Position numbers and translations under genes: made by a program
Shown: positions 5,784 to 19,489 of the stretch, in pieces
Layout of the letters: every line of letters begins with the position of its first letter
Numbering within the stretch: the stretch's first letter is position 1
The notes under the pieces: model-generated
Databases searched by the model: none
What the model was told of the DNA's origin: nothing
What the model saw: only the letters and a program-made list of their open reading frames with translations
Assembly (NCBI RefSeq): GCF_023559245.1
Contig: NZ_CP097462.1
Span: forward strand, 310,001-374,000
Length of the DNA: 64,000 nt
Reading direction: 5' to 3'
From: Sphingomonas sp. KRR8
Lineage (GTDB): Bacteria > Pseudomonadota > Alphaproteobacteria > Sphingomonadales > Sphingomonadaceae

Positions 5784-7808
5784 CTACGGCACGTTCTCTG
5801 TCAGCAGGTCGTAGGTCGCGACCAGTTCTTCCTTCTGGTTGAAGATCTCGACGGCCCAGCGGACGACACCGGTGTCCTCGCTCTTGAGACTCTTGGAGCG
5901 GACGGTCAGCTCCACCCGCATCGAATCGCCGGGGTAGAGCGGCGTCAGGAAGCGGAGGTTCTCGAGGCCCGTATTGGCCAGCACGGGACCGGGCGCTGGG
6001 TCGACAAAAAGGCCGGCGGCGAAGCTCAGGATCAGATAGCCGTGGGCAACCCGGCCTTCGAAGATCGGTGAAGCCTTGGCGGCTTCCTCGTCCATGTGGG
6101 CGTAGAAGGTGTCGCCGGTGAAGTGGGCGAAATGCTCGATGTCCTCGACCGTCACGGTGCGGCTGGCGGTCTTGAGCGTGTCGCCGATGTGCAGTTCGCT
6201 CATGCGCTTGCGGAACGGGTGGGCGTCGATGACATGCTTCGGCCCGCCGGGGATGTACTGGTCGGTGATGGCAGCGATCATGGCGGGCGACGACTGGATG
6301 GCCGTACGCTGCATGTAGTGGGCAACGCCGCGGATGCCGCCCATCTCCTCGCCGCCGCCGGCACGGCCGGGGCCGCCATGGACCAGCACCGGCAGCGGCG
6401 AACCGTGGCCGGTCGAGTCCTTGGCGTTCGTGCGGTCGATGACCAGCATCCGGCCGTGATGACTTCCCGCGCCGAGCACGAAGTCACGCGCGGCCTCTGG
6501 CGAATGGGTGAAGAGGGACAGGACGAGGCTGCCGCGCCCGCGATTGGCCAGCGCCACGGCGTCGTTGAGGTCGCGGTAAGGCATCACGGTCGCGACCGGG
6601 CCGAACGGCTCGACGTCATGGACCGCGTCGCACGACCAGGGATCATCGGCGCGCAGCAGGATCGGCGAGAGGAAGGCGCCGCCATCGGGACCGACGCTGG
6701 CGTGGAGATCGCCCGCCACGACCCGCGCGCCTTGGGCGGTGATCGCGCTCACCGCCTCGCGCACGCTGTCGCGCTGGGCACGGCTGACCAGCGCGCCCAT
6801 GCGGGTGTCCTCGGCACGCGGATCGCCGACCCTGGTGACTGCGAGGCGGTCGCGAATGGCGGCCTCAACCGCGTCGATGTGCGCTGCTGGAGCCATCGCG
6901 CGGCGGATGGCGGTGCACTTCTGCCCCGCCTTGACCGTCATCTCGGTCACCACTTCCTGCACGAATAGGTCGAATTCGGGTGTGCCGGGAGCGGCATCCG
7001 GGCCGAGGATGGAGGCGTTGAGGCTGTCCTGCTCGGCGATGAATTTAACGCTGTTGCGCTGGATGGCGGGATGGGTTCGAAGCTTGAGCGCAGTCGCCGC
7101 CGAGCCGGTAAAGCTCACCACGTCCTGTCCCGACAGATGGTCGAACAGGTCGCCCACGCCGCCGACGATCAGTTGCACCGCGCCGAGCGGCAGGATGTCG
7201 GCCTCGATCATCACCCGAAAGGCGGCCTCGCACAGCCAGGCGGTGGCACTGGCTGGCTTCACGATCGCCGGAACTCCGGCGAGGATCGTCGGGGCGAGCT
7301 TCTCCAGCATACCCCAGACAGGGAAATTGAAGGCATTGATGTGGACCGCCACGCCCTGCAGCGAGGTGAAGATGTGCTGGCCGACGAACAGCCCGGACTT
7401 GCTCAGGGGCTCAAGCTGGCCATCGAGCAGCACGTGCGCGTCCGGCAGCTCGCGCCGGCCCTTCGAGGAAAAGGAGAGGAGCGTGCCGGCGCCGCCCTCG
7501 ATGTCGATCCAGCCATCCTTGCGGGTGCAGCCGGTGGCGTAGTTGAGCTCGTACAGCTCTTCCTTGCGAGCAAGGACGGCGAGGCCGAGCGCCTTGAGCA
7601 TCCGGGCGCGCTCGTGGAAGGTCAGGCGGCGCAGGGCGGGGCCGCCGACGTCCCGCGCGAAGGCCGCCATGGCGCCAAAGTCGAGCCCGCCAGAGCCGGT
7701 CAGGGCAACGGTGCTGCCGTCCACCGCCGAGGGCAATTCCGTCAGGGTGGCCGTGTCACCGGGGGTCCACTGGCCGCGAGCGTAGTTGAGAAGCTGGGGA
7801 GTTTTCAT
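5784..7808 (-). CDS. paaZ: PaaZ: oxepin-CoA hydrolase / 3-oxo-5,6-dehydrosuberyl-CoA semialdehyde dehydrogenase
   Basis: A 674-residue fusion, the usual PaaZ length. Residues 1 to about 520 are an aldehyde dehydrogenase with catalytic Glu259 ([11 protein letters not shown]) and Cys298 (KAGQKCTA). Residues about 535-674 are a MaoC-type (R)-hydratase with the motif [16 protein letters not shown], then [10 protein letters not shown]. PaaZ opens the oxepin ring of 2-oxepin-2(3H)-ylidene-CoA and oxidises the resulting aldehyde, the committing step of the aerobic phenylacetate route. It lies on the minus strand, separated from paaG by the PilZ gene on the other strand. Its stop is 13 bases from the end of the PEP-CTERM gene. 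Confidence 0.96.
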
Positions 7809-8288: not shown

Positions 8289-9068
8289 CTAGCGCCCGGT
8301 GAAGACCGCCGGGCGCTTTTCCAGAAAGGCGGCGACGCCCTCACGATAGTCGGCGGTGAAGCCCAGGCGGCGCATCTCGTCGCGCTGCAGGTCGAGCTCT
8401 GTCTCGAGGTCGCGGGACCAGCTGGAGCGAACCAGCTGCTTGATCGCGGCGAGCCCTAGCGGTGGCAGGCTGGCGAGCTTGGCGGTGAGCCCATCAACGG
8501 TCTCATCGAGCGCCGCGTCCTCGACGCATTTCCAGATCATGCCCCATTCGGCGGCCTGGCTGGCGGACAAGGGTTCGCCGGTGAGCGCAAGACCCAGGGC
8601 GCGAGCCTGCCCGACGAGACGCGGCAGGTGCCAGCTCCCGCCGCTGTCGGGAATGAGGCCCAATGCCGAAAAGCTCTGGATGAATTTGGCCGAGCTGGCG
8701 GCGATAACCAGGTCGCAGGCCAGCGCGACGTTGGCGCCCGCCCCAGCAGCCACGCCGTTTACGCGGGCGATCACCGGCTGCGGGATGGTGGCCAGGCGCC
8801 GGATCAGGGGATTCCAGCTTTCCTCGACCGTCTCGCCAAGGTCGACCTCCTGACCGGGCGCAACTGCGCGGTCGTTGAGGTCCTGGCCCGCGCAGAAGCC
8901 GCGGCCGGCTCCGGTGAGGACGATGACCCGCGCCGAGGCCGCCTGGCGCAGCGCGTCGGAAAGTTCGCCATGCATCTGCCGAGTGAAACTGTTCAGCCGG
9001 TCGGGCCGGTTGAGGGTGATCCGGGCAACGCCGTCCACCTGCTCGAGGATGATGGTCTGGTAGGTCAT
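8289..9068 (-). CDS. paaG: PaaG: 1,2-epoxyphenylacetyl-CoA isomerase
   Basis: A 259-residue crotonase-fold enzyme. It shows RPDRLNSF near the N-terminus, the oxyanion-hole region GAGRGFCAGQDLNDR, VNGVAAGAGANVALACD, and LGLIPDSGGSWHLPR, whose aspartate is in the position used by E. coli PaaG. The QDLNDR signature separates PaaG from generic enoyl-CoA hydratases. It converts the ring epoxide made by PaaABCE to the oxepin that PaaZ opens. ATG at 9066-9068 has GGAG 7 bases upstream; a start 42 bases earlier has none. It converges on the PilZ gene with a 6-base gap. Confidence 0.93.
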   Translation of the reverse strand: MTYQTIILEQVDGVARITLNRPDRLNSFTRQMHGELSDALRQAASARVIVLTGAGRGFCAGQDLNDRAVAPGQEVDLGETVEESWNPLIRRLATIPQPVIARVNGVAAGAGANVALACDLVIAASSAKFIQSFSALGLIPDSGGSWHLPRLVGQARALGLALTGEPLSASQAAEWGMIWKCVEDAALDETVDGLTAKLASLPPLGLAAIKQLVRSSWSRDLETELDLQRDEMRRLGFTADYREGVAAFLEKRPAVFTGR

Positions 9069-9136
9069 GGCGGCGCTCCGAAGATTCGACGTGGCCCTTG
9101 GTGCAACCACGCCGGCTCGGAGACAACCATGACCGG

Positions 9137-9886
9137 CTAACGCTTCAGCCCGGCGAGCATCGTCAGCCGTTCCTCGACGGTGCCGTCACGTTCGGCAAAG
9201 CGGAGTGGTTTCACGCGCTCCACCAGGATTTCGGGCGGGGTGGGTTGCTGGGCGAACAGGTTCATCACTTCATAGATGAACTCGCTCAGCGGCATGTAGC
9301 CGGGGCGGGTGCTCTGTCCGGGGGTGAGGTCCGTCTGCACGCCCGGGGGTACCAGCTCGATCACCTCGATCTTGCCTTCGAGCAGCTTGCGGAGGGCCAG
9401 CGTGTAGCTGTGGATAGCGGCCTTTGTTGCTGAGTAAGTGGCGCTGTCGGGCAGGGGTACCGTCGCAAGGCCGGAGGTCACGTTGATGATCGCTGCGTCA
9501 GCTTGCCCCTTCAGGTGATCGATCAGTGCGTCGATCAGCCGAATGGGGCCGAGCAGGTTGGTTGTGACGGTCGCTTCGGCGTCGGACAGGTCACGCCTCG
9601 CGGTGATGTCTTCCACCCGCATGATCCCGGCGTTGTTGACCAGCACGTTGAGCTTTGGGTGCTCCGCGAGGAGGCGCTCGACGAAGCTCCTCAGGGCTGC
9701 GGGATCGTCCACGTCGACGGCATAAGAGACCATGTTGGACCGGTCGCCGATCGTTTCCCTCAGCGCCTCATCGCGGCGACCGGCGATGATCACGTGGTTG
9801 CCGGCGTCGTGCCAGCGGCGGGCGAGTTCGCGGCCGATGCCCGAGCCGCCGCCAGTGACGAGGATGGTGTTGCCGGTGGCCTTCAT
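9137..9886 (-). CDS. SDR-family oxidoreductase (DltE-like)
   Basis: A 249-residue classical short-chain dehydrogenase with TGGGSGIG near residues 10-17, NNAG around residue 89 and the catalytic Y-x3-K in YSATKAA. The C-terminal part ([11 protein letters not shown]) fits the DltE-like subgroup often annotated in proteobacteria. Its ATG (9884-9886) overlaps the TGA of the upstream LLM flavoprotein gene in an ATGA junction, so the two are co-translated. The substrate is unknown. Placement between paaG and paaA suggests, but does not prove, a role in aromatic metabolism. Confidence 0.85.
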
Positions 9887-10893
9887 GCGGCGGTCTCCAA
9901 AGGTTGTGCGGTTGGCTTGTTCATGGCTTCGGCGAGCAGGGCGTAGGAACGCTCCCTGGCGTGCGGATCGAAGATCTGAGCGGTGATCATGAGCTCGTCC
10001 GCGCCGGTGCGGGCGAGGAAGGCGTCGACCTGGCTCCGAACGGTCTCCTTGCTGCCGATGGCGGAGCAGGTGAGGACCTGTTCCAGCGTCAGGCGGTGCT
10101 GCATTGGAAGGCTTTCGAGATAGCCGGCCCGCGGCGGTGGGAGCTGACCCGGGGTGCCGCTGCGCAAAGCCACGAACGCTTGCTGGACCGAAGTGGCGAG
10201 CAGCTGCGCCTCCTCGTCCGTGTCGGCGACGAAAGCGTTGAAGCCGAGCATCACATAGGGCTTGTCGAGCTGCTCGGAAGGTTCGAACCGTTCGCGATAG
10301 AGCCTGATGGCCGCGTCCATCTGCTGCGGGGCGAAGTGCGACGCGAACGCGTACGGCAGGCCAAGCATGGCGGCGAGTTGGGCGCCGAACAGGCTGGAGC
10401 CCAGGATCCACACGGGGACGGTCTGGCCTTCGCCGGGGATGGCGCGGATGCGGCCGTTTTCCCCTTTGAAATAGCCCATCAGCTCCACAACGTCGTTGGG
10501 AAACTGGTTCTCGTCCGCATTCAGGTTCCGCCGCAGCGCCCACGCGGTGGCCTGGTCGGTCCCGGGCGCACGTCCAAGCCCAAGGTCGATCCGGCCGGGG
10601 TAAAGGGCTTCAAGGGTTCCGAACTGCTCGGCGATGGTCAGCGGCGCGTGGTTGGGCAGCATGATGCCGCCCGCACCGATACGGATCGTGCTGGTCCGCG
10701 ACCCGACATAAGCGAGCGCGACGGCCGTGGCCGCGCTTGCGATGCCCGGCATGCCGTGATGCTCGGCCATCCAGTATCGATGATAACCAAGCCGTTCCGC
10801 ATGGGCGGCGAGCGCGCCTGAGCGGCGAAGCGAGTCGCCGGGGGTGGAGCCCTGGGGAACGGGCGAGAGGTCGAGAACGGAGAGAAGCGCCAT
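9883..10893 (-). CDS. LLM-class flavin-dependent oxidoreductase (MsnO8-type luciferase-like)
   Basis: A 336-residue bacterial-luciferase-like flavoprotein. Diagnostic stretches are LSVLDLSPV at the N-terminus, [11 protein letters not shown], the [14 protein letters not shown] segment, and [15 protein letters not shown]. These match the luciferase-like MsnO8 subfamily, whose members are F420- or FMN-dependent monooxygenases of mostly unknown substrate. It is divergent from paaA across about 66 bases and is the first gene of a two-gene unit with the SDR. A dehydrogenase plus a flavin monooxygenase could act on a shunt product of the phenylacetate pathway; this is speculation. Confidence 0.85.
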
Positions 10894-10923
10894 GACCCCT
10901 ACATGGGTGGGCTACCGTCCAGT

Positions 10924-10964
10924 TTGAACCGCGGACCGCCAGGGACTACATGCAAGTTCATGTA
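10924..10964 (+). promoter_or_regulatory. paaA promoter with overlapping palindromic operator
   Basis: TTGAAC (10924-10929) and TACATG (10947-10952) are spaced by 17 bases. The -10 is also the left arm of a perfect palindrome, TACATG-N6-CATGTA, at 10947-10964. Its right arm contains the paaA start codon at 10960. A further TACATG half site lies at 10900-10905 near the start of the divergent LLM gene. The transcript would begin at or very near the ATG. Confidence 0.5.
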
Positions 10965-11958
10965 CACGACCGATCTCTCCAAGTCCGGCGCGGGCTCCAA
11001 GGTTCAGCCGATTGGCCCGGCCGAGGACCCGGCGCTGCTCGAAGCATTCGAGGCGCGAGTCGCTGCCGATGAGTTCATCGAACCGAAGGACTGGATGCCG
11101 GAGGCCTACCGCCGCACGCTGACCCGGCAGATCAGCCAGCACGCGCACAGCGAGATCGTCGGGATGCTGCCGGAGGGCAACTGGATCACGCGGGCGCCGA
11201 GCCTGCGGCGCAAGGCAATTCTGCTGGCCAAGGTGCAGGACGAGGCGGGCCATGGGCTCTACCTCTATTGCGCGGCCGAGACGCTGGGCACCAGCCGCGA
11301 GGAGATGATCGAGGCGCTGCACTCGGGCAAGGCCAAGTACAGCACCATCTTCAACTATCCGACACTGACCTGGGCGGATATTGGCGCGATCGGCTGGCTC
11401 GTCGACGGCGCGGCCATCATGAACCAGGTGCCGCTGCAGCGGACCAGCTATGGGCCCTACGCCCGGGCGATGGTCCGGGTGTGCAAGGAAGAGAGCTTCC
11501 ACCAGCGCCAGGGCTACGAGATCATGATGGCGATGGCGAACGGGTCGCCGGCGCAGAAGCGCATGGCGCAGGATGCGCTCAACCGTTGGTGGTGGCCGAG
11601 CCTGATGATGTTCGGCCCGCCGGACGACAATTCGCCGAACACCGCGCAGAGCCTGCGCTGGCGGATCAAGCGCGAGACGAATGACGAGCTGCGGCAGAAG
11701 TTCGTCGACATCACCGTGCCACAGGCCGAGTATCTTGGGCTGACGGTCCCCGATGCCCACCTCAAGTGGAACGAGGCGAAGGGCGGCTACGACTTCGGCG
11801 CGATCGACTGGGAGGAATTCTATTCGGTCGTGCGCGGCGAGGGCCCCGTCGCGAAGGAGCGGATGACCGCTCGGCGCGAGGCGTGGGAGAGCAACGCCTG
11901 GGTCCGCGAGGCGGCCGCGGCGCATGAGGCGAAGAAGCGGGCGAAGGCGGCCGCTTGA
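10960..11958 (+). CDS. paaA: PaaA: phenylacetyl-CoA 1,2-epoxidase catalytic subunit
   Basis: A 332-residue ferritin-like di-iron oxygenase subunit. The iron-ligand motifs are clear: DEAGH (E95, H98) and EESFH (E178, H181), with [25 protein letters not shown] upstream in separate blocks characteristic of PaaA. With PaaB, PaaC and the reductase PaaE it epoxidises the ring of phenylacetyl-CoA. The start MYTTDL matches the usual PaaA N-terminus and lies inside the palindrome described for its promoter, with no ribosome binding site visible. It is the first gene of a seven-gene plus-strand operon. Confidence 0.96.
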
Positions 11959-12002
11959 CCTTGCCCGTCGGCCCGGCGAAGGCCCGCTGACGGAGGAATA
12001 TC

Positions 12003-12284
12003 ATGTCTGACTGGCCGTTGTGGGAAGTGTTCGTCCGCGCCAAGGGCGGCTTGGCGCACCGGCACGTGGGTTCGGTCCACGCGCCTGACAGTGAGCTGGC
12101 GCTGCGCCATGCACGCGACACCTATACCCGGCGGCAGGAAGGGGTCAGCCTTTGGGTTGTGCGTTCGACGGACATCGTCGCGAGCGATCCCGACCAGGCA
12201 GGTGAGCTGTTCGAGCCGGCGGCGGACAAGGTTTACCGGCACCCGACCTTCTACGACATTCCCGATGTGGTGAAGCACATCTGA
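12003..12284 (+). CDS. paaB: PaaB: phenylacetyl-CoA epoxidase subunit
   Basis: A 93-residue protein of the usual PaaB length, with WPLWEVFVRAKGGLAHRHVGS at the N-terminus (split across the first two strands) and HARDTYTRRQEGVSLWVV. PaaB bridges the PaaAC heterodimers in the epoxidase. A GGAGG site lies immediately before ATG 12003, after a 44-base gap from paaA. Its TGA at 12282-12284 shares one base with the ATG of paaC (TGATG), which indicates coupled translation. Confidence 0.96.
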   Translation: MSDWPLWEVFVRAKGGLAHRHVGSVHAPDSELALRHARDTYTRRQEGVSLWVVRSTDIVASDPDQAGELFEPAADKVYRHPTFYDIPDVVKHI

Positions 12285-13105
12285 TGCCGAGCCTACCCCC
12301 GATCCGCCCCGAGGAAGAAGCCGCGGCGGCGACCCTGCGCAGCACCGGCAGCTTCGATGCGCCTGCGGACGCGACTGACCCCGTCCGCGCCGGCTATTTC
12401 CTCCGGCTTGGCGACGACGCGCTCATCCTCGGCCAGCGGCTCAGCGAATGGTGCGGACATGCACCCAGCGTCGAAGTCGACCTGAGCCTGGCGAACCTGT
12501 CGCTCGACTTGATCGGGCAGGCGACGCTGCTGCTGGCCGAAGCTGGCGATGCCGACGAATTGGCGTTCAAGCGCGACGTGCTCGACTTTCGCAACTGCTG
12601 GCTAGTCGAGCAGCCAAATGGCGATTTCGCACGGACGATGGTGCGGCAACTGCTGTTCTCGACCTGGCAGCACCTGCTTTACCAGCGGCTGACGGCCAGC
12701 AGCGATGCGGCACTGGCGGGGATCGCGGCCAAGGCGGTCAAGGAAGTCGCCTATCACCGCGAACTGGCCGCCGACTGGGTCGTGCGGCTGGGCGACGGAA
12801 CGGAGGAGAGCGCCAGGCGGACGCGGGAAGCGCTCGACTGGTGCTGGCGCTTCGTGCCGGAGCTGTTCGAGGTCGATGAGGAACTCGAGGCGGCGATTGG
12901 CTGCGGGCTGGCGGCCGACCCGCGTTCGTTCGAGGCCGACTATCGCGCCGCCATCGCCAGCGCGCTCGGCGAGGCGGGGTTGCCGGTGCCCGCCGACCAG
13001 CGACCGATCCTCGGCGGCCGTCGCGGCCACCATAGCGAGCACCTCGGCCATCTGCTGGCGCTGATGCAATATCTGCCGCGTACCTATCCGGACGCCGTCT
13101 GGTGA
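12284..13105 (+). CDS. paaC: PaaC: phenylacetyl-CoA epoxidase structural subunit
   Basis: A 273-residue ferritin-like subunit that has lost the iron site and stabilises PaaA. Hallmarks are YFLRLGDDALILGQRLSEWCGHAP (as consecutive shorter motifs), LSLDLIGQA, and RGHHSEHLGHLLALMQY near the C-terminus. It has a slightly longer N-terminal extension than E. coli PaaC. It overlaps paaB by one base and the GTG of paaE by four (GTGA). The paaD gene that normally sits between paaC and paaE is absent. Confidence 0.95.
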   Translation: MPSLPPIRPEEEAAAATLRSTGSFDAPADATDPVRAGYFLRLGDDALILGQRLSEWCGHAPSVEVDLSLANLSLDLIGQATLLLAEAGDADELAFKRDVLDFRNCWLVEQPNGDFARTMVRQLLFSTWQHLLYQRLTASSDAALAGIAAKAVKEVAYHRELAADWVVRLGDGTEESARRTREALDWCWRFVPELFEVDEELEAAIGCGLAADPRSFEADYRAAIASALGEAGLPVPADQRPILGGRRGHHSEHLGHLLALMQYLPRTYPDAVW

Positions 13106-14178
13106 GCGCGAAGGAGTTCCACTCGCTGCAGGTGGCGGAAGTGGTCGCGGAGACGGATGAGGCCCGCTCGATCCGGTTCGCCGTGCCCCCTGACCTCGAA
13201 AGTGTTTTCCGCTTCCGTGCAGGGCAGCATCTGACCCTTCGCGCCGACATCGGCGGCCAAGACGTGCGGCGCAATTACTCGCTCTGCGTCGCGCCGGACG
13301 ACGGCGCGCTGATGGTGACGGTGAAGCAGATCGCCGGCGGTGCCTTCTCCAACTGGGTGGCGCGTGAGTTGAAGGCCGGTGACCGGCTCGACGTCATGCC
13401 GCCGCACGGGTCCTTCACGATCGACTTCGATCCGAGCCGCGCCGCACGTTACGTCGCCTTCGCGGGCGGGTCGGGAATCACGCCAATCATGAGCCTGATC
13501 CGAACAGCACTGAAAACCGAGCCAAGGAGCCGCTTCACGCTGTTCTACGGCAACCGCGACGCGAGTTCGGTCATTTTCCTGGAGCAACTGGCGGGGCTCA
13601 AGGATCGCTACCTCGGCCGGTTCGACCTTTACCATTTCCTGTCTGAGGAGGAGGGCGACGTAGATCTCCTCAACGGGATGCTCGACCGCGAAACGTGCGA
13701 GCAGGCAATCGAGGCGTTTGTCGACTCGCCGGCCGAGGTTGACGCCTGGTTCGTCTGCGGTCCCGGGCCGATGATGGATGCTGCCGAAGCGGCGATGCTC
13801 GACCGCGGAGTGGCGCCTGACCGCATTCACATCGAACGTTTCACCGCCGGCCGGCCCTCCGCAGCGCTGGCGGCGGAGATGGCGCAGCTGCAGCAGCAGG
13901 CGTCGGGCCTGCAGATGAGTGTCACGATCGACGGTCGCACCCGCAAGGTGGCGTTCGACGGCACCAATATCCTCGACAGTGCGCGGGCCAGCGGGCTGCC
14001 GGCGCCCTTCGCCTGCAAGGCGGGCGTGTGCGCCACCTGCCGGGCGCGGGTGACCGCCGGCGAGGTCAGCATGGCGGCACGTTATGGCCTCACCGACGAG
14101 GAGATTGACGCAGGCTATGTGCTGACCTGCCAGTCGGTGCCCAAGGGTGACGGCGTGGCGGTGGATTACGACGCTTAA
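13102..14178 (+). CDS. paaE: PaaE: phenylacetyl-CoA epoxidase reductase (FAD, 2Fe-2S)
   Basis: A 358-residue electron-transfer subunit. Residues 1 to about 105 are an FAD domain of the ferredoxin reductase type (RRNYSL at 56-61), then an NAD(P) domain (AGGSGITPIM 121-130; CGPGPMM 219-225). Residues about 270-358 are a plant-type [2Fe-2S] ferredoxin with Cys305, Cys310, Cys313 and Cys343. It passes electrons from NAD(P)H to the di-iron site of PaaA. The start is a GTG at 13102 overlapping the paaC stop. The next gene, an aminotransferase, begins 19 bases after its stop. Confidence 0.96.
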   Translation: MSAKEFHSLQVAEVVAETDEARSIRFAVPPDLESVFRFRAGQHLTLRADIGGQDVRRNYSLCVAPDDGALMVTVKQIAGGAFSNWVARELKAGDRLDVMPPHGSFTIDFDPSRAARYVAFAGGSGITPIMSLIRTALKTEPRSRFTLFYGNRDASSVIFLEQLAGLKDRYLGRFDLYHFLSEEEGDVDLLNGMLDRETCEQAIEAFVDSPAEVDAWFVCGPGPMMDAAEAAMLDRGVAPDRIHIERFTAGRPSAALAAEMAQLQQQASGLQMSVTIDGRTRKVAFDGTNILDSARASGLPAPFACKAGVCATCRARVTAGEVSMAARYGLTDEEIDAGYVLTCQSVPKGDGVAVDYDA

Positions 14179-14197
14179 GGACGCTAGAGCCACGGCC

Positions 14198-15406
14198 ATG
14201 CTCACCACTGCCGCGCCCAAGGGCATCGCCGATCTCGACCCCGTTGTCAGCGACTCGCTGCTGGCCCTGATCGCGCTGATCGCGGCTGACCCCCGGGACA
14301 ACAAGATCGATGTCGGGGTCGGTGTCTTCCGCGACGGCGAGGGGCGCACGCCCATCCCGGCCAGCGTCAAGGAAGCGGAGCGGCGGCTGCTCGATGGCCA
14401 GGAGACCAAGGCCTATCTGGGCGGCTGGGGTGACCGTGGTTTCACCAAGGCGCTGCGGCCGATCGTGCTGGGAGCTCATGCCGGGGACGAGCGGATCGCG
14501 GGAGTCCAGACGCCCGGCGGCTGTGGCGCCTTGTTCCTGGCAACCAAGCTGCTGAAGCTGGCGAAGCCGGACGCGCGGGTGCTGGTGGGAACGCCAACCT
14601 GGCCAAATCATCCGCCGGTCATCAAGGGCGCCGGGCTCGAGATCGTCGAATACCGGCACTATGACTTCGCCACTCGGATGGTGGACTTCGCGGCGTTGCG
14701 TGAGGCCGCCTCCCGGGCGGCTCCCGGTGACATCCTGTTGCTCCATGGCTGCTGCCACAATCCGACCGGCGGTGATCTGAGCGAAGCCGAGTGGCGCGAA
14801 GTTGCAGCGATTGCTCGTGAGCGTCAGCTGACCCCGCTGATCGACCTTGCCTATCAGGGCTTCGGACGCGGGTTCGAAGAGGACGGCTATGGCGTCCAGG
14901 TCATGCTCGACGCCTGCGACGAAGTGCTGGTCGCGCAGAGCTGCGACAAGAACTTCGGCGTTTACCGTGACCGGGTCGGCAGCTTCTGGCTCAAGACCCG
15001 CGACGCCGCGGCGACTGCCAATGCCATGGCGCATGTGCTGCAGATCGCGCGCGAGGCCTGGTCGATGCCACCCGACCATGGTGCGGCGGCGGCGCGGATC
15101 GTGCTGGAGGACGAACATCTTCGGGCGCTGTGGCTGGATGAGGTCGCCGCCATGCGCAACCGGATCAACCAGGTGCGCCGTCGGATCGCCGATAGCGATC
15201 AGCGGTTGGGCTATATTGCCAGCGAATTCGGCATGTTCTCGATGCTGCCGCTGACCAAGGCGCAAGTCGTGGCGCTGCGTGACAAGCACGCGATCTACAT
15301 GGCCGACAGCGGCCGTTTCAACGTGGTCGGCTTTGCGGACCGGGACATCGACCGCTTCTGCGCCGCGGTGATCGAAGCGATGGACTCCGTTCCCGCGCAT
15401 GGCTGA
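14198..15406 (+). CDS. Aromatic/aspartate-type aminotransferase (class I, TyrB/AspC-like)
   Basis: A 402-residue PLP enzyme. Visible active-site elements are YLGGWGD (72-78), CHNPTGG (N188), DLAYQGF (D216) and the Schiff-base lysine K251 in CDKNFGVYRDRVG. The KNFGxYxxRVG pattern belongs to the AspC/TyrB subgroup, which accepts aspartate, phenylalanine and tyrosine. Position argues for an aromatic substrate: it follows paaE by 19 bases and overlaps the 2-oxo acid dehydrogenase gene by 8. I infer that it makes phenylpyruvate from phenylalanine for that dehydrogenase. ATG 14198 is chosen over an upstream in-frame start inside paaE. Confidence 0.88.
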   Translation: MLTTAAPKGIADLDPVVSDSLLALIALIAADPRDNKIDVGVGVFRDGEGRTPIPASVKEAERRLLDGQETKAYLGGWGDRGFTKALRPIVLGAHAGDERIAGVQTPGGCGALFLATKLLKLAKPDARVLVGTPTWPNHPPVIKGAGLEIVEYRHYDFATRMVDFAALREAASRAAPGDILLLHGCCHNPTGGDLSEAEWREVAAIARERQLTPLIDLAYQGFGRGFEEDGYGVQVMLDACDEVLVAQSCDKNFGVYRDRVGSFWLKTRDAAATANAMAHVLQIAREAWSMPPDHGAAAARIVLEDEHLRALWLDEVAAMRNRINQVRRRIADSDQRLGYIASEFGMFSMLPLTKAQVVALRDKHAIYMADSGRFNVVGFADRDIDRFCAAVIEAMDSVPAHG

Positions 15407-17450
15407 CGCGGACGCGCATTTTACCGGCACCGAGGTGGACTGGCGGGAGGTGGCGCGGCTGGTGCTGACCAGCCGCGAGATGGACCGGATCGAGGAAGAG
15501 GAACTCGTTCCAGCCCGCAAGGTGCTCTATCAGTTCAGCGCTCGCGGCCATGACATGGCGCAGGTGCTGCTGGGGCTGCGCTTACGCGATGGCGATGCTG
15601 CCTGCGGCTATTACCGCAGCCGGCCGCTGCTGCTCGCGCTCGGGGTGCCGCTGGCCGACGCGCTTGGCTCCGGCATGGGCCGCGAGGGCGGTTATTCTGG
15701 CGGACGCGATATCGGTGTCGTGTTCAACTATCCCAATCCCGGCGGCGCGCACGCCTTGCCGATGAGCGGCGGAGTGGGCGCGCAATATACGCCGGCCGCC
15801 GGATGGGCGCAGGCGATCCGCTACAAGGCCGAAGTGCTGAAGGAGCGGCAAGCGGATAACATCGCACTGGTGCTCGGCGGCGACGCGAGTTGCGCGACGG
15901 GGGGTTTCTGGTCGGCGCTGACGATCGCCACGACCCAGCGGCTGCCGTTGCTGATGTATGTCGAGGACAATGGCTACGGCATCTCGGTGCCGTCGACCTA
16001 CCAGACGCCGGGGCAGGACATCGCTGCCAACCTGGCGAGCTTTCGCGGGCTGACGATCTTCAACGGCGATGGCACCGACCCGGTTGAGGCAGCCCGGCTG
16101 ATCGACGCTGCCGTGAGCCATGTGCGGCAGAAGCAGGCGCCGGCGCTGCTGCGACTGACCGTGCCGCGGCTGGAAGGGCACAGCTACCAGGATACGCAGA
16201 CCTACAAGAGCGAGGAAGTGGTCGCCGCCGAATGGGCCCGCGATCCGCTGCCGAAGCTTAAAGCGCACTGCGCCGCCCGGCAGATCGGCGACAGCGACTG
16301 GGCCGAGCTGGAGCAAAGGGTCGCGTGGGAAGTCGGTCAGGCACGCGAAGACGCCGAAGCGCGCGGCGTGCTGCCGGTGGACCAGGTGGCCGACAACGTC
16401 TTTTACTCAGGGAAGCCCTCGCGGGTTGGGGGCGGGGCGGGCCTGAGCCTTGACGGCACGCATGACGAGCCGCGGCCGGACGGGCAGCGGATCAACATGG
16501 TAACGGCCATCCGCCGCGTGCTGGAGCAGGAGCTGAGCGCTAACCCGAAGATGGCCGTGTTCGGCGAGGATGTCGGGCCCAAAGGCGGCGTCCATGCGGT
16601 GACGCTGGGGCTGCAGGAACGGTTCGGTGTGGCGCGGGTGTTCGACACCAGCCTCAACGAGGAGGGTATCGTCGGGCGCGCGGCGGGGATGGCAATGGCC
16701 GGGCTGCTGCCAGTGCCGGAGATCCAGTTCCGCAAATATGCCGAGCCGGCGACCGAGCAGATCAACGACATCGGCACCATGCGCTGGCGGACCGACAATC
16801 ATTTCGCCGCTCCGATGGTGCTGCGGGTGCCGGGCGGCTTCTTCAAGTGCGGCGACCCCTGGCACAGTCAGACCAACGAAGTGCAGTTCGTGCATAATCC
16901 CGGCTGGCTGGTGGCGGTGCCAAGCAATGCCGAGGATGCGGTCGGACTGCTGCGGATGGCGTTGCGCGGGCACGATCCGGTGCTGTTCTTCGAACATCGC
17001 GCGATGCTGGATGACAGCTGGGCGCGGCGGCCGTGGCCGGGGGACGGATTCGTTCTTCCATTCGGACGCGCCAAGAAGACCCGTGAGGGCGACAAGATCA
17101 CCATCGTTACCTGGGGCGCAATGGTGCCCCGTTGCGAGGCGGCCGCGGAGGGCGTCAGCGCGGATGTGATCGACCTGCGCACGCTGATGCCCTGGGATCG
17201 TACCGCGGTGCTGGAAAGCGTTCGCCGCACCCGCCGTTGCCTGATCGTGCATGAGGATCTGCGCACCGGTGGCTTCGGCGCGGAAATCGCGGCCGTGGTG
17301 GCGGATGAGGCGTTCCTCGACCTCGACGCGCCGGTCGCTCGCGTGACCATGCCCGATATTCCGAGCCCGCATCATCCCAGCCTGCTGGAAGCGGCCGTGC
17401 CGAGCGTCGAGCGCATCCGGGCCGAGATCGACCGGCTGGTGGGGTTCTGA
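15399..17450 (+). CDS. Fused E1 alpha-beta subunit of a 2-oxo acid dehydrogenase complex
   Basis: A 683-residue fusion. Residues 1 to about 340 are the alpha part with the ThDP motif GGDAS (160-164) through DN (190-191). Residues about 365-683 are the beta part (AVFGEDVGPKGGVHAVT, FDTSLNEEGIVGRAAGMA, EIQFRKYAEPATEQI). It is related to branched-chain 2-oxo acid dehydrogenase E1, which is usually two genes. It oxidatively decarboxylates a 2-oxo acid and passes the acyl group to the E2 lipoyl arm. It starts 8 bases inside the aminotransferase gene and ends 5 bases before E2. An aryl-pyruvate substrate is my inference from context; branched-chain 2-oxo acids remain possible. Confidence 0.88.
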   Translation: MADADAHFTGTEVDWREVARLVLTSREMDRIEEEELVPARKVLYQFSARGHDMAQVLLGLRLRDGDAACGYYRSRPLLLALGVPLADALGSGMGREGGYSGGRDIGVVFNYPNPGGAHALPMSGGVGAQYTPAAGWAQAIRYKAEVLKERQADNIALVLGGDASCATGGFWSALTIATTQRLPLLMYVEDNGYGISVPSTYQTPGQDIAANLASFRGLTIFNGDGTDPVEAARLIDAAVSHVRQKQAPALLRLTVPRLEGHSYQDTQTYKSEEVVAAEWARDPLPKLKAHCAARQIGDSDWAELEQRVAWEVGQAREDAEARGVLPVDQVADNVFYSGKPSRVGGGAGLSLDGTHDEPRPDGQRINMVTAIRRVLEQELSANPKMAVFGEDVGPKGGVHAVTLGLQERFGVARVFDTSLNEEGIVGRAAGMAMAGLLPVPEIQFRKYAEPATEQINDIGTMRWRTDNHFAAPMVLRVPGGFFKCGDPWHSQTNEVQFVHNPGWLVAVPSNAEDAVGLLRMALRGHDPVLFFEHRAMLDDSWARRPWPGDGFVLPFGRAKKTREGDKITIVTWGAMVPRCEAAAEGVSADVIDLRTLMPWDRTAVLESVRRTRRCLIVHEDLRTGGFGAEIAAVVADEAFLDLDAPVARVTMPDIPSPHHPSLLEAAVPSVERIRAEIDRLVGF

Positions 17451-17455
17451 GCGCC

Positions 17456-18673
17456 GTGATCGAGGTCCGCGTCCCCGATGAGCAGGAGGGCACCAAGGCG
17501 GTGGTTCGCGCCTGGCTGAAACAGGTGGGGGAGACCGTCCGTGTCAATGACCCGCTGGTCGAGCTCGAAACCGACAAGGTTACGCAGGAAGTGCCTTCGC
17601 CGGCGGCAGGGGTGCTGAGCGAGATCTTGCTTGATACGGACGCGGAGGCCGTGCCGGGGGCGCTGCTGGGGATCATCAGCGATGCCCCGGCTCAGACCGG
17701 GGACCAGGCCGCAGCGCCGGCGGTGCGTCGGTCCGAAGAAAAGAGCGCAGCTGACGGCGCTTCTGGACCCCGGCCTGAGCGGGGGTACGAAGATCAAGAA
17801 ACCCGTTTTTCCCCGTCGGTGCGCCGGGCCCTCCTGCAGCATGACCTCGACCCCGCACGGATCGAGGGCACCGGCCGCGCTGGCCGGATCACGCGCGAGG
17901 ATGTCGACCGGGCGGTGGCGCAGGCGACCGTCAGCCACGTGGACGCTGGTGCAAAGGTTATGGCCCAGCCGCGCATTGCCGAGGCGAACTGGAGCGACAT
18001 TCCGCACGACCGGATGCGCCGCACCATCGCCGAGAACATGGTTCGTGCGGTCAGCGAGGCGCCGCATGTGACGGCGCTGTTCGAGGCCGATTTCGGCGCC
18101 ATTGCGGCCCACAAGGCGGCACTGGCGCAGGACGGGGTGAAGCTCAGCTACACCGCTTACCTGCTCAAGGCCGCCGCCGAAGCGATGGCGGTCGCGCCAG
18201 CGATCAACGGGCGATGGGCCGAGGACCGGATCGCGATTGCACCGAACGTCGACATTGGCGTCGGCACCGCCCTTGGTGAGAAGGGTCTTGTGGTGCCGGT
18301 GGTGCGCGATTGCGGTCGCCTCAGCGTTCAAGAGATTGGTGCGAGGTTGGACGAGCTTACCCGCAAGGCGCGCGAAGGCAGGCTGGAGCGCTCGGACGTC
18401 AGCGGGGGCAGCTTCACCATTTCCAATCATGGCGTGTCGGGCTCGCTGCTCGCCGCGCCGATCATCTTGCACCAGGGGCAGGCCGCGATCCTTGGCGTCG
18501 GCAAGCTGCAGAAGCGGGTGGTTGTTCGTGAGGTGGATGGCGCCGACGCGATCGCCATCCGACCGATGGCCTACGTCACGCTCACCATCGATCACCGGGT
18601 GGTGGACGGGCACCAGACCAACGCCTGGCTCACCCGCTTCGTCGAGCTGATCGAGGGTTGGCCCGCTCCGTAG
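17456..18673 (+). CDS. E2 dihydrolipoyl acyltransferase of the same complex
   Basis: A 405-residue protein. The lipoyl domain spans 1 to about 75, with lipoylated K41 in ELETDKVTQEV. A linker (77-112) is encoded by two inverted palindromic repeats. The peripheral subunit-binding domain covers about 116-155 (SPSVRRALLQHDLDP, GTGRAGRITREDV). The catalytic domain runs about 175-405 and ends with the active site H380/D384 in DHRVVDG. It starts with a GTG at 17456, five bases after E1. No E3 gene follows, so a shared lipoamide dehydrogenase elsewhere is presumed. It is the last gene of the paa operon. Confidence 0.92.
   Translation: MIEVRVPDEQEGTKAVVRAWLKQVGETVRVNDPLVELETDKVTQEVPSPAAGVLSEILLDTDAEAVPGALLGIISDAPAQTGDQAAAPAVRRSEEKSAADGASGPRPERGYEDQETRFSPSVRRALLQHDLDPARIEGTGRAGRITREDVDRAVAQATVSHVDAGAKVMAQPRIAEANWSDIPHDRMRRTIAENMVRAVSEAPHVTALFEADFGAIAAHKAALAQDGVKLSYTAYLLKAAAEAMAVAPAINGRWAEDRIAIAPNVDIGVGTALGEKGLVVPVVRDCGRLSVQEIGARLDELTRKAREGRLERSDVSGGSFTISNHGVSGSLLAAPIILHQGQAAILGVGKLQKRVVVREVDGADAIAIRPMAYVTLTIDHRVVDGHQTNAWLTRFVELIEGWPAP
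17685..17792. repeat. Pair of inverted REP-like palindromes inside the E2 coding sequence
   Basis: Copy 1 is CCCCGG-CTCAGA-CCGGGG at 17685-17702. Copy 2 is CCCCGGCCTGAGCGGGG at 17768-17784, flanked by CTTC (17760-17763) and GAAG (17789-17792). The reverse complement of copy 1 matches copy 2 as CTGG-W-CCCCGG-Y-CTGAGC, so they are head-to-head copies of one element about 58 bases apart. They are read in frame as the flexible E2 linker (about residues 77-112). Confidence 0.72.
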
Positions 18674-18684
18674 GCGTAACAACA

Positions 18685-18709
18685 GGAACGCCCCTCTTTC
18701 CGGCCCGTT
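18685..18709 (+). promoter_or_regulatory. EcfG-type (general stress response) promoter
   Basis: GGAAC at 18685-18689, 16 bases, then CGTT at 18706-18709. This is an exact match to the alphaproteobacterial sigma-EcfG consensus GGAAC-N16/17-CGTT. It lies 27 bases before the SRPBCC start and heads the operon 18737-22578. Confidence 0.78.
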
Positions 18710-18736
18710 GGCGTGGCAGGACAGGAGAGTCGTTCC

Positions 18737-19489
18737 ATGGCAGACGGCAGTGACGAGCGGCGCGACACGGCGCGACCACGCAATTCGCAATCGAACCGGC
18801 GCGGGAGCGGACAGAGCGAAAGCTCCAACCGCGCGCTGATTGGCTTGGGCCTGGGACTTGCCACCGCAGGCGCGGCGGCGTTCTTCTTTGCCAAGGCCCG
18901 GGAAGACGATGTTGGCGACGGACCGCTCTTGAGCGATGCGCCCGACCATGTCCTGCGCGGCAAGGCGCTCCGGAACGCCCGCAACACGGAGCCTGGCACC
19001 GCGCTAGTCGGCCGCACGGTGACGGTGAACAAGCCCAAGCAGGAGCTCTACCAGGTGTGGCGCGACTTCACGCGCTTCCCTGAGTTCATGGACAATGTGC
19101 GCGAGATCCGGCGGCTGGACGACAAGGTCTCCGAGTGGATCATCGAGGCGCCGGCCGGGGCGACCGTAAGCGTCAAGACGCGCATCATCGAGGATGAGCC
19201 CGGCACCACCATCGCCTGGGTCAGCGAGCCCGACAGCCAGATCGAAACGTCCGGGCGGGTCGAGTTCGCCGATGCGCCTCCGGGGCGCGGCACCTATGTT
19301 CGGCTGGTGATGCGCTACACGCCGCCGGCCGGCACCATCGGCCGGCTCGCCGCCAAGGTCCTGCAACGCGAACCGCAGGTTCAGGCCCGGCGCGACCTCC
19401 ACCGCTTCAAATCGCTGATGGAAACCGGCGAGGTCGCGGTCAACGCGTCCCCGTCGGGCCGCAAGTCGGAATCGCGCACCGAGGCTTGA
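18737..19489 (+). CDS. SRPBCC-family (polyketide cyclase/Coq10-like) protein with N-terminal membrane anchor
   Basis: A 250-residue protein. A polar, Arg/Ser-rich head of about 30 residues precedes one hydrophobic segment ([19 protein letters not shown]). From about residue 90 an SRPBCC domain begins ([33 protein letters not shown]), the pattern of cyclase/dehydrase stress proteins. ATG 18737 is preferred over a GTG at 18713 because AGGAGA stands 8 bases before it. It is the first gene of the EcfG-type operon with an ADH, SDR and permease. Its ligand is unknown. Confidence 0.82.

Follow-up and report, generated by a model that had tools for sequence, protein, structure and literature searches.

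A fused-E1 2-oxo acid dehydrogenase encoded with the phenylacetyl-CoA epoxidase genes of Sphingomonas: a predicted entry from phenylalanine into the Paa pathway

Results

Organization of the locus

The stretch of DNA analyzed here, hereafter the window, comprises 64,000 nucleotides of the genome of Sphingomonas sp. KRR8 (contig NZ_CP097462.1, positions 310,001 to 374,000), a genome of 2.87 Mb in one contig that is listed as 100% complete. On one strand of the window, the phenylacetyl-CoA epoxidase genes paaA, paaB, paaC and paaE are followed by genes for an aminotransferase, a fused E1 alpha/beta protein and an E2 protein (Table 1). We designate the fused protein, and its counterparts in other genomes, E1*. 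A sequence-only reading of the window had reported this gene order, which the open reading frames (ORFs) and family scans confirm. The spacings are also as that reading gave them when read from the bases: 19 bases between paaE and the aminotransferase gene, an 8-base overlap between the latter and the E1* gene, and 5 bases from E1* to E2. Its description of a 683-residue fusion of alpha and beta parts holds as well, all three E1 domains of Pfam (E1_dh, Transket_pyr and Transketolase_C) being present in a single chain. In the family scan, PaaE falls about 15 bits below the TIGR02160 cut-off, and the remaining Paa subunits lie far above theirs.

Table 1. Genes and features of the paa region of the window
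Feature	Coordinates	Strand	Basis
paaA, phenylacetyl-CoA epoxidase subunit	10960..11958	+	TIGR02156 530 bits, cut-off 280
paaB	12003..12284	+	TIGR02157 144.6 bits, cut-off 85
paaC	12284..13105	+	TIGR02158 271.6 bits, cut-off 133
paaE, reductase subunit	13102..14178	+	TIGR02160 406 bits, cut-off 420.8
Aromatic-type aminotransferase	14198 (ATG)..15406	+	NF006719 "aromatic amino acid transaminase" 448 bits, cut-off 377
E1*, fused E1 alpha/beta, 683 aa	15399..17450	+	Pfam E1_dh, Transket_pyr, Transketolase_C; fold; clade; signature
E1* signature KCGDPWHS, residues 483-490	16845..16868	+	Alignment and tree rows
E2, dihydrolipoyl acyltransferase	17456..18673	+	Pfam PF00364, PF02817, PF00198 (lipoyl, E3-binding, acyltransferase)
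paaZ, bifunctional ring-opening enzyme, divergent	5784..7808	-	TIGR02278 993.5 bits
paaG, epoxide isomerase, divergent	8289..9110	-	TIGR02280 376.7 bits
Short-chain dehydrogenase (SDR) and luciferase-like monooxygenase, between paaG and paaA	9137-9919 and 9883-10893	-	Family scans

Identity of E1*, E2 and the aminotransferase

E1* and E2 constitute a 2-oxo acid dehydrogenase complex with an alpha/beta-type E1, as the three E1 domains of the one chain are matched by the lipoyl, E3-binding and acyltransferase domains of the other. The predicted structure of E1* (AlphaFold; mean pLDDT 72, pTM 0.76) matches the E1 beta chains of pyruvate and branched-chain complexes (1w85, 1um9 and 1qs0), and its N-terminal (alpha) part matches 1um9_A with an E of 3.5e-29. 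Several loops of the model are weak, residues 445-471 and 480-501 having a pLDDT below 50.

E1* proteins stand apart from other E1 enzymes. A tree was built from 59 beta parts, 46 of them E1* and 13 from other enzymes, and in it E1* forms one clade with 100/100 support and a long stem; since the tree program warned that some long branches meet, the position of the outer rows is uncertain. The signature KCGDPWHS occurs in 46/46 E1* rows, two of which are identical, and in 0/13 of the other beta parts. It is also invariant in all 27 rows of an alignment whose members are 69-92% identical to the window protein. E1 enzymes bind thiamine diphosphate by means of a GDG...N motif and employ catalytic histidines. 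At the position of this motif, a separate alignment has GDA in the window's E1*, GDG in some relatives and GEA in others. N191, H261 and H489 are invariant in the 27-row alignment, and His489 is aligned with the HSQ histidine that E1 beta chains conserve. The relatives of E1* are currently labeled 2-oxoisovalerate dehydrogenase, pyruvate dehydrogenase (PDH), alpha-ketoacid dehydrogenase or transketolase. E1* scores below the cut-offs of the four PDH E1 models listed, as does the branched-chain-type E1 of this genome.

The score of the aminotransferase against NF006719 suggests an enzyme of the aromatic type, with aspartate specificity possible under what is a subfamily model. Its best solved relative, at 325 bits, is the aromatic amino acid aminotransferase 1ay4 of Paracoccus denitrificans.

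Co-occurrence of E1* with the Paa pathway

Three sets of genomes were searched. Of the 296 genomes in the order sample, for which up to three E1* candidates per genome were scored, 32 encode E1*: 22 of the genus, six more of the family and four more of the order, among which G033 is cut at a contig end. The genus sample (n=22) consists of the window genome and L052-L072, searched by tblastn with the window proteins. A paaA match was found in 73 genomes of the order sample, five of which lay below the family cut-off and were left out; three of these five (G040, G078 and G106) encode PaaK, and all five lack E1*. With kinship ignored, paaA is present in 32/32 E1* genomes versus 68/296 overall (Fisher p=3e-24) and, when the genus is removed, in 10/10 versus 46/274 (p=7e-9). 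The class sample (n=347) yields 4/4 versus 44/347. The third set, the named loci, holds the best 80 of at least 581 genome stretches that encode an E1* relative. Among the 48 of these genomes given a paaA search, 46 carry paaA, including members of Rhizobium, Sinorhizobium, Pseudomonas and Paracoccus. Identical paaA coordinates show that at least three of these 48 also occur in the order or class sample (L120=G140, L121=G158 and L143=G612), and the two samples supply no base rate of paaA for the Pseudomonas genomes. By comparison, among the matches listed, paaA is present in 10 of the 23 genomes whose full-length E1 copies are 31-36% identical. E1* thus tracks the Paa pathway.

Conservation of gene order

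The sequence-only reading had recommended a search for the same gene order elsewhere, and its outcome was positive. All 22 genomes of the genus have the seven genes in this order on one strand, albeit not always without gaps, as paaA and paaB are 1.4-1.5 kb apart in L054 and L055. Further, the three-gene core paaE-aminotransferase-E1 is consecutive in 24/24 loci of a close group, defined as the named loci with an E1 at least 79% identical to that of the window (L078-L100 and L110; the remainder number 56); two of these, L087 and L110, are cut at contig ends and do not display the full seven genes. The close group includes Sphingomonas arenae, S. cremea, S. alba, Sphingomicrobium lutaoense and Sphingomicrobium astaxanthinifaciens (L098). 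The seven-gene arrangement is more than chance.

Outside the close group, a paa gene lies within the fetched stretch in 24/56 named loci, among which L147 counts only through a paaG-like match; for the loci with full flanks, the figure is 16 of 35. Linkage to paa outside the genus is also found in G308 and G440 of the searched samples, and E1, E2, paaG and paaZ are consecutive in G007 and G033. In 53 of the 56 loci, E2 is within 600 bases after E1; it abuts E1 in L151 and is lost at a contig end in L119. Nine loci that carry other E1 genes served as a control (L171-L178 and L182, six of which are bkd-type in the tree); a paa gene was seen in 0/9 and such an aminotransferase in 0/9. We also note that a PaaX-like gene adjoins E1* in Sinorhizobium fredii (L138, 8443-9330), where the 10-kb flanks yielded no match to a paa structural gene.

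Distribution of PaaK

In the window genome, the best match to TIGR02155, the PaaK family, is 23.8 bits versus a cut-off of 646.3, no other type of phenylacetate-CoA ligase having been sought. PaaK was detected in just one of the 22 genomes of the genus (G176), all of which have paaA. Thresholds were E<=1e-60 for the genus and order sample, with up to five candidates per genome scored, and E<=1e-150 for the class sample. In the order sample, PaaK is present in 7/32 E1* genomes versus 28/36 paaA genomes without E1* (p=7e-6). In the class sample, G308 and G440 have it, and G612 and the window genome do not. The paaK gene is about 2 kb from E1* in G271 and about 6 kb away in G007.

Regulators and neighboring genes

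Among the 57 loci L101-L157, 33 have a divergent Lrp/AsnC-type gene just upstream of E1 or its aminotransferase; this family call was checked by Pfam for one example. Lrp/AsnC regulators are known for sensing amino acids. No Lrp-type gene was seen adjoining the module in the window. In L140, a Pseudomonas metagenome-assembled genome (MAG), fumarylacetoacetase-type and 4-hydroxyphenylpyruvate dioxygenase (HPPD)-like genes stand on either side of E1*. These regulators and neighbors point to the catabolism of amino acids, in part aromatic ones.

Discussion

A proposed route from phenylalanine to phenylacetyl-CoA

We propose that the operon is an entry module that leads from phenylalanine through phenylpyruvate and phenylacetyl-CoA to PaaABCE, and we place the probability of this predicted function at roughly 0.8. 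The aminotransferase would convert L-phenylalanine to phenylpyruvate. By the chemistry of the family, E1* would decarboxylate phenylpyruvate on thiamine diphosphate and acylate the E2 lipoyl domain with the phenylacetyl group, which E2 would in turn transfer to CoA. A shared E3, i.e., a lipoamide dehydrogenase encoded elsewhere, would re-oxidize the lipoyl group with NAD+; two lipoamide dehydrogenase genes above the family cut-off are present in the genome (98150 and 125724). Phenylacetyl-CoA would then be processed by PaaABCE, PaaG and PaaZ, which are assigned by family and encoded in the same and the divergent operon. Such a route would avoid free phenylacetate, phenylacetaldehyde and the ATP-consuming PaaK step. 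The transamination and direct oxidative decarboxylation envisaged in the sequence-only reading receive support from the separate bkd-type set described below, from the lack of a PaaK match and from the co-occurrence of E1* and paaA in the three sets of genomes.

Several observations weigh against this proposal. The aspartate aminotransferases 4f5l (310 bits) and 1aaw (292) rank just behind 1ay4 and before other aromatic enzymes, such as 3fsl (250); aromatic specificity is therefore not established for the aminotransferase. An aminotransferase gene is upstream of E1 in just 14/56 loci outside the close group, so the other loci would need an aminotransferase encoded away from the module. A phenylalanine 4-hydroxylase-like (phhA-like) gene (247 bits versus a TIGR01267 cut-off of 265) is also present in the genome, about 1.3 kb from a gene for HPPD (412 bits; G000:C1:2240633-2243688); phenylalanine thus likely has a second route and is not limited to Paa. 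Two of the 48 searched E1* genomes, an Oleiphilaceae MAG (L137) and Methylobacterium sp. Leaf123 (L157), have no paaA match. Further, the absence of PaaK pertains to the TIGR02155 type only, unrelated phenylacetate-CoA ligases not having been searched for. When the genus is excluded, PaaK is found in 6/10 E1* genomes versus 28/36 paaA genomes without E1* (p=0.42), and the loss of PaaK within the genus may be one event.

The question of PaaK

The last of these points bear on what E1* does for its host. A general rule that E1* replaces PaaK was not upheld, the anti-correlation in the order sample stemming from one genus. Since PaaK is retained in six of the ten E1* genomes outside the genus, E1* looks like an additional entry in general, and replacement of PaaK is likely only in this genus. 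In the genus, where PaaK is mostly missing, E1* and E2 would be the main identifiable source of phenylacetyl-CoA; in other lineages they would often be an extra entry beside PaaK. The by-pass of PaaK put forward in the sequence-only reading accordingly stands for the window genome, but not for the seven E1* genomes of the order sample that keep PaaK. We consider it somewhat better than an even chance that E1* is an entry to Paa that has supplanted PaaK in the window's genus, such that the pathway there would no longer take phenylacetate.

Alternative substrates and roles

Another possibility is that the complex is a broad arylpyruvate dehydrogenase that converts phenylpyruvate, 4-hydroxyphenylpyruvate and indolepyruvate alike, phenylalanine being one feed among others. 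Aromatic transaminases are usually broad, and the HPPD-like and fumarylacetoacetase-type genes that flank the module in L140, together with an HPPD-like gene nearby in L064 and L088, would be in keeping with a wider range. However, this genome has HPPD to deal with 4-hydroxyphenylpyruvate, and PaaABCE is described, in the accessible text of PMC7497051, as epoxidizing phenylacetyl-CoA. We regard this broad specificity as improbable.

The branched-chain substrate that the sequence-only reading had kept as its alternative is disfavored further. The E1 and E2 do belong to the same superfamily as those of branched-chain (bkd) complexes, with which they share fold and E1/E2 logic and in which alpha and beta are separate, and several E1* relatives are labeled "2-oxoisovalerate dehydrogenase E1 component" by their source. 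The genome, however, has a bkd-type set of its own. Of six E1_dh matches, including E1*, one at 403974 (347 bits) is probably PDH, one at 94533, which neighbors a further E2 gene and one for a lipoamide dehydrogenase, is probably SucA, and two are weak (24-30 bits). The remaining match, at 2739407 (333 bits), is followed by beta and E2 genes, and the set spans G000:C1:2736986-2740555 (L073). We call it bkd-type because its alpha gene matches solved 2-oxoisovalerate dehydrogenase alpha chains (2bp7 and 1qs0) at 507 bits and because of the tree; NCBIfam models give its alpha, beta and E2 no bkd-specific name, all three being below the listed PDH and 2-oxoglutarate dehydrogenase (OGDH) cut-offs. 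Its beta part clusters with the counterparts from G094 and G215, apart from the E1* clade. Had no separate bkd operon existed, the sequence-only reading would have taken the window's set to be simply bkd; with one present and E1* outside that clade, this simple identity is rejected. Further, E1* lacks the glycine-rich beta motif seen in the bkd clade, the adjoining transaminase is of the aromatic/aspartate family, and paaA accompanies E1* in nearly all of the named genomes searched. A branched-chain activity is thus very unlikely.

Least probable by our estimate, and hardly to be expected, is a role of E1* and E2 in natural-product biosynthesis from phenylacetyl-CoA or a ring-expanded shunt of the tropone type: the published PDH-like phenylpyruvate complexes are biosynthetic (PglB/C, PMC7089894; ripostatin, cited in PMC5490192) and tropones derive from the Paa pathway (PMC7497051), as far as the accessible texts go, and a luciferase-like oxidoreductase, an SDR and a Polyketide_cyc/lipid-transport-fold protein are neighbors, but these families are not specific to biosynthesis, paaZ and paaG for complete ring opening adjoin the module, and the gene set is conserved throughout the genus.

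Relation to known systems

Among aerobic routes for aromatic carbon, the Paa pathway is a major one, and PaaK is commonly named as its entry. The window shares PaaABCE, PaaG and PaaZ with the canonical pathway; it differs in that no PaaK was found and entry is proposed by way of E1* and E2. For the corresponding reaction, Phaeobacter inhibens is reported to use a ferredoxin-type oxidoreductase, not a lipoyl complex. Its direct conversion of phenylalanine to phenylpyruvate and phenylacetyl-CoA, described in the accessible text of PMC7497051, resembles our proposal in that phenylacetyl-CoA arises without free phenylacetate. In Streptomyces pristinaespiralis, the PDH-like complex PglB/PglC is suggested to convert phenylpyruvate to phenylacetyl-CoA in a phenylglycine pathway (PMC7089894, available portion). 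As compared by description, the proposed conversion is the same, but PglB/PglC is biosynthetic, its alpha and beta chains being encoded by two genes of an antibiotic cluster, whereas the window has a fused E1 with E2 and a transaminase in a paa operon. A PDH-like complex also decarboxylates phenylpyruvate in ripostatin biosynthesis (as cited in the accessible part of PMC5490192); by that description, it is biosynthetic and, unlike E1*/E2, places the phenylacetyl group on a carrier protein.

Given these precedents, the reaction itself is not new. In the open-licence literature, outside which most subscription papers fall, we found no description of a lipoyl-type phenylpyruvate dehydrogenase feeding PaaABCE. 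The novelty suggested in the sequence-only reading appears to hold for a Paa-catabolic complex, but not as a sphingomonad specialty, the family being found beyond sphingomonads, nor for the idea of PDH-like phenylpyruvate enzymes, already proposed in PMC7089894 as far as its accessible text goes. The new part appears to be a fused-E1, widely spread catabolic complex within paa operons.

If our proposal is correct, organisms could grow on phenylalanine through Paa without growing on phenylacetate. Surveys centered on paaK would miss the entry in genomes that use E1*; one survey inspected the gene context around paaK and also weighed PaaA and PaaC as markers (PMC13186573, accessible part). With at least 581 stretches that encode an E1* relative, of which the best 80 were examined, probably hundreds of database entries could be renamed.

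Additional observations

The divergent paaZ and paaG genes to the left of paaA had gone unmentioned in the earlier reading. An SDR at least 60% identical to the one beside them was seen near paaG elsewhere only in L071, L078 and L081. A longer start of paaA, at 10903, is possible from the ORF list. The paaC-paaE junction, the one place examined for paaD, lacks it in all 22 genomes of the genus; the two genes adjoin in 21 of them, and a glyoxalase-type gene fills the gap in L071. A scan of 10700-18900 returned one promoter-like site (0.7 expected) and two terminator-like sites (3.6 expected).

Outside the genus, the Methylobacterium locus L157 encodes an E1* (10001-12028) 72% identical to that of the window, with no E2 match in the locus and no paaA in the genome; sensor-kinase-like and sigma-54 activator genes lie upstream of this E1*. 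The short ORFs that recur upstream of E1* in L133 and L142 have no Pfam match and are antisense to the Lrp-type genes there. Efflux genes in L149 and a LysR gene in L124 are uninformative neighbors. A xanthine/aldehyde oxidase-type molybdopterin dehydrogenase gene, identified by Pfam for one member, lies about 5-9 kb from E1* in seven loci of Rhizobium and Pseudomonas (L125, L136, L141, L142, L148, L150 and L154). In Martelella (L128, 13233-14669), a lipoamide-dehydrogenase-type gene directly follows E2, giving the order E1-E2-E3, and ORFs of the same cluster as this gene, which was the only one scanned with Pfam, are found in L111, L117, L152 and L153.

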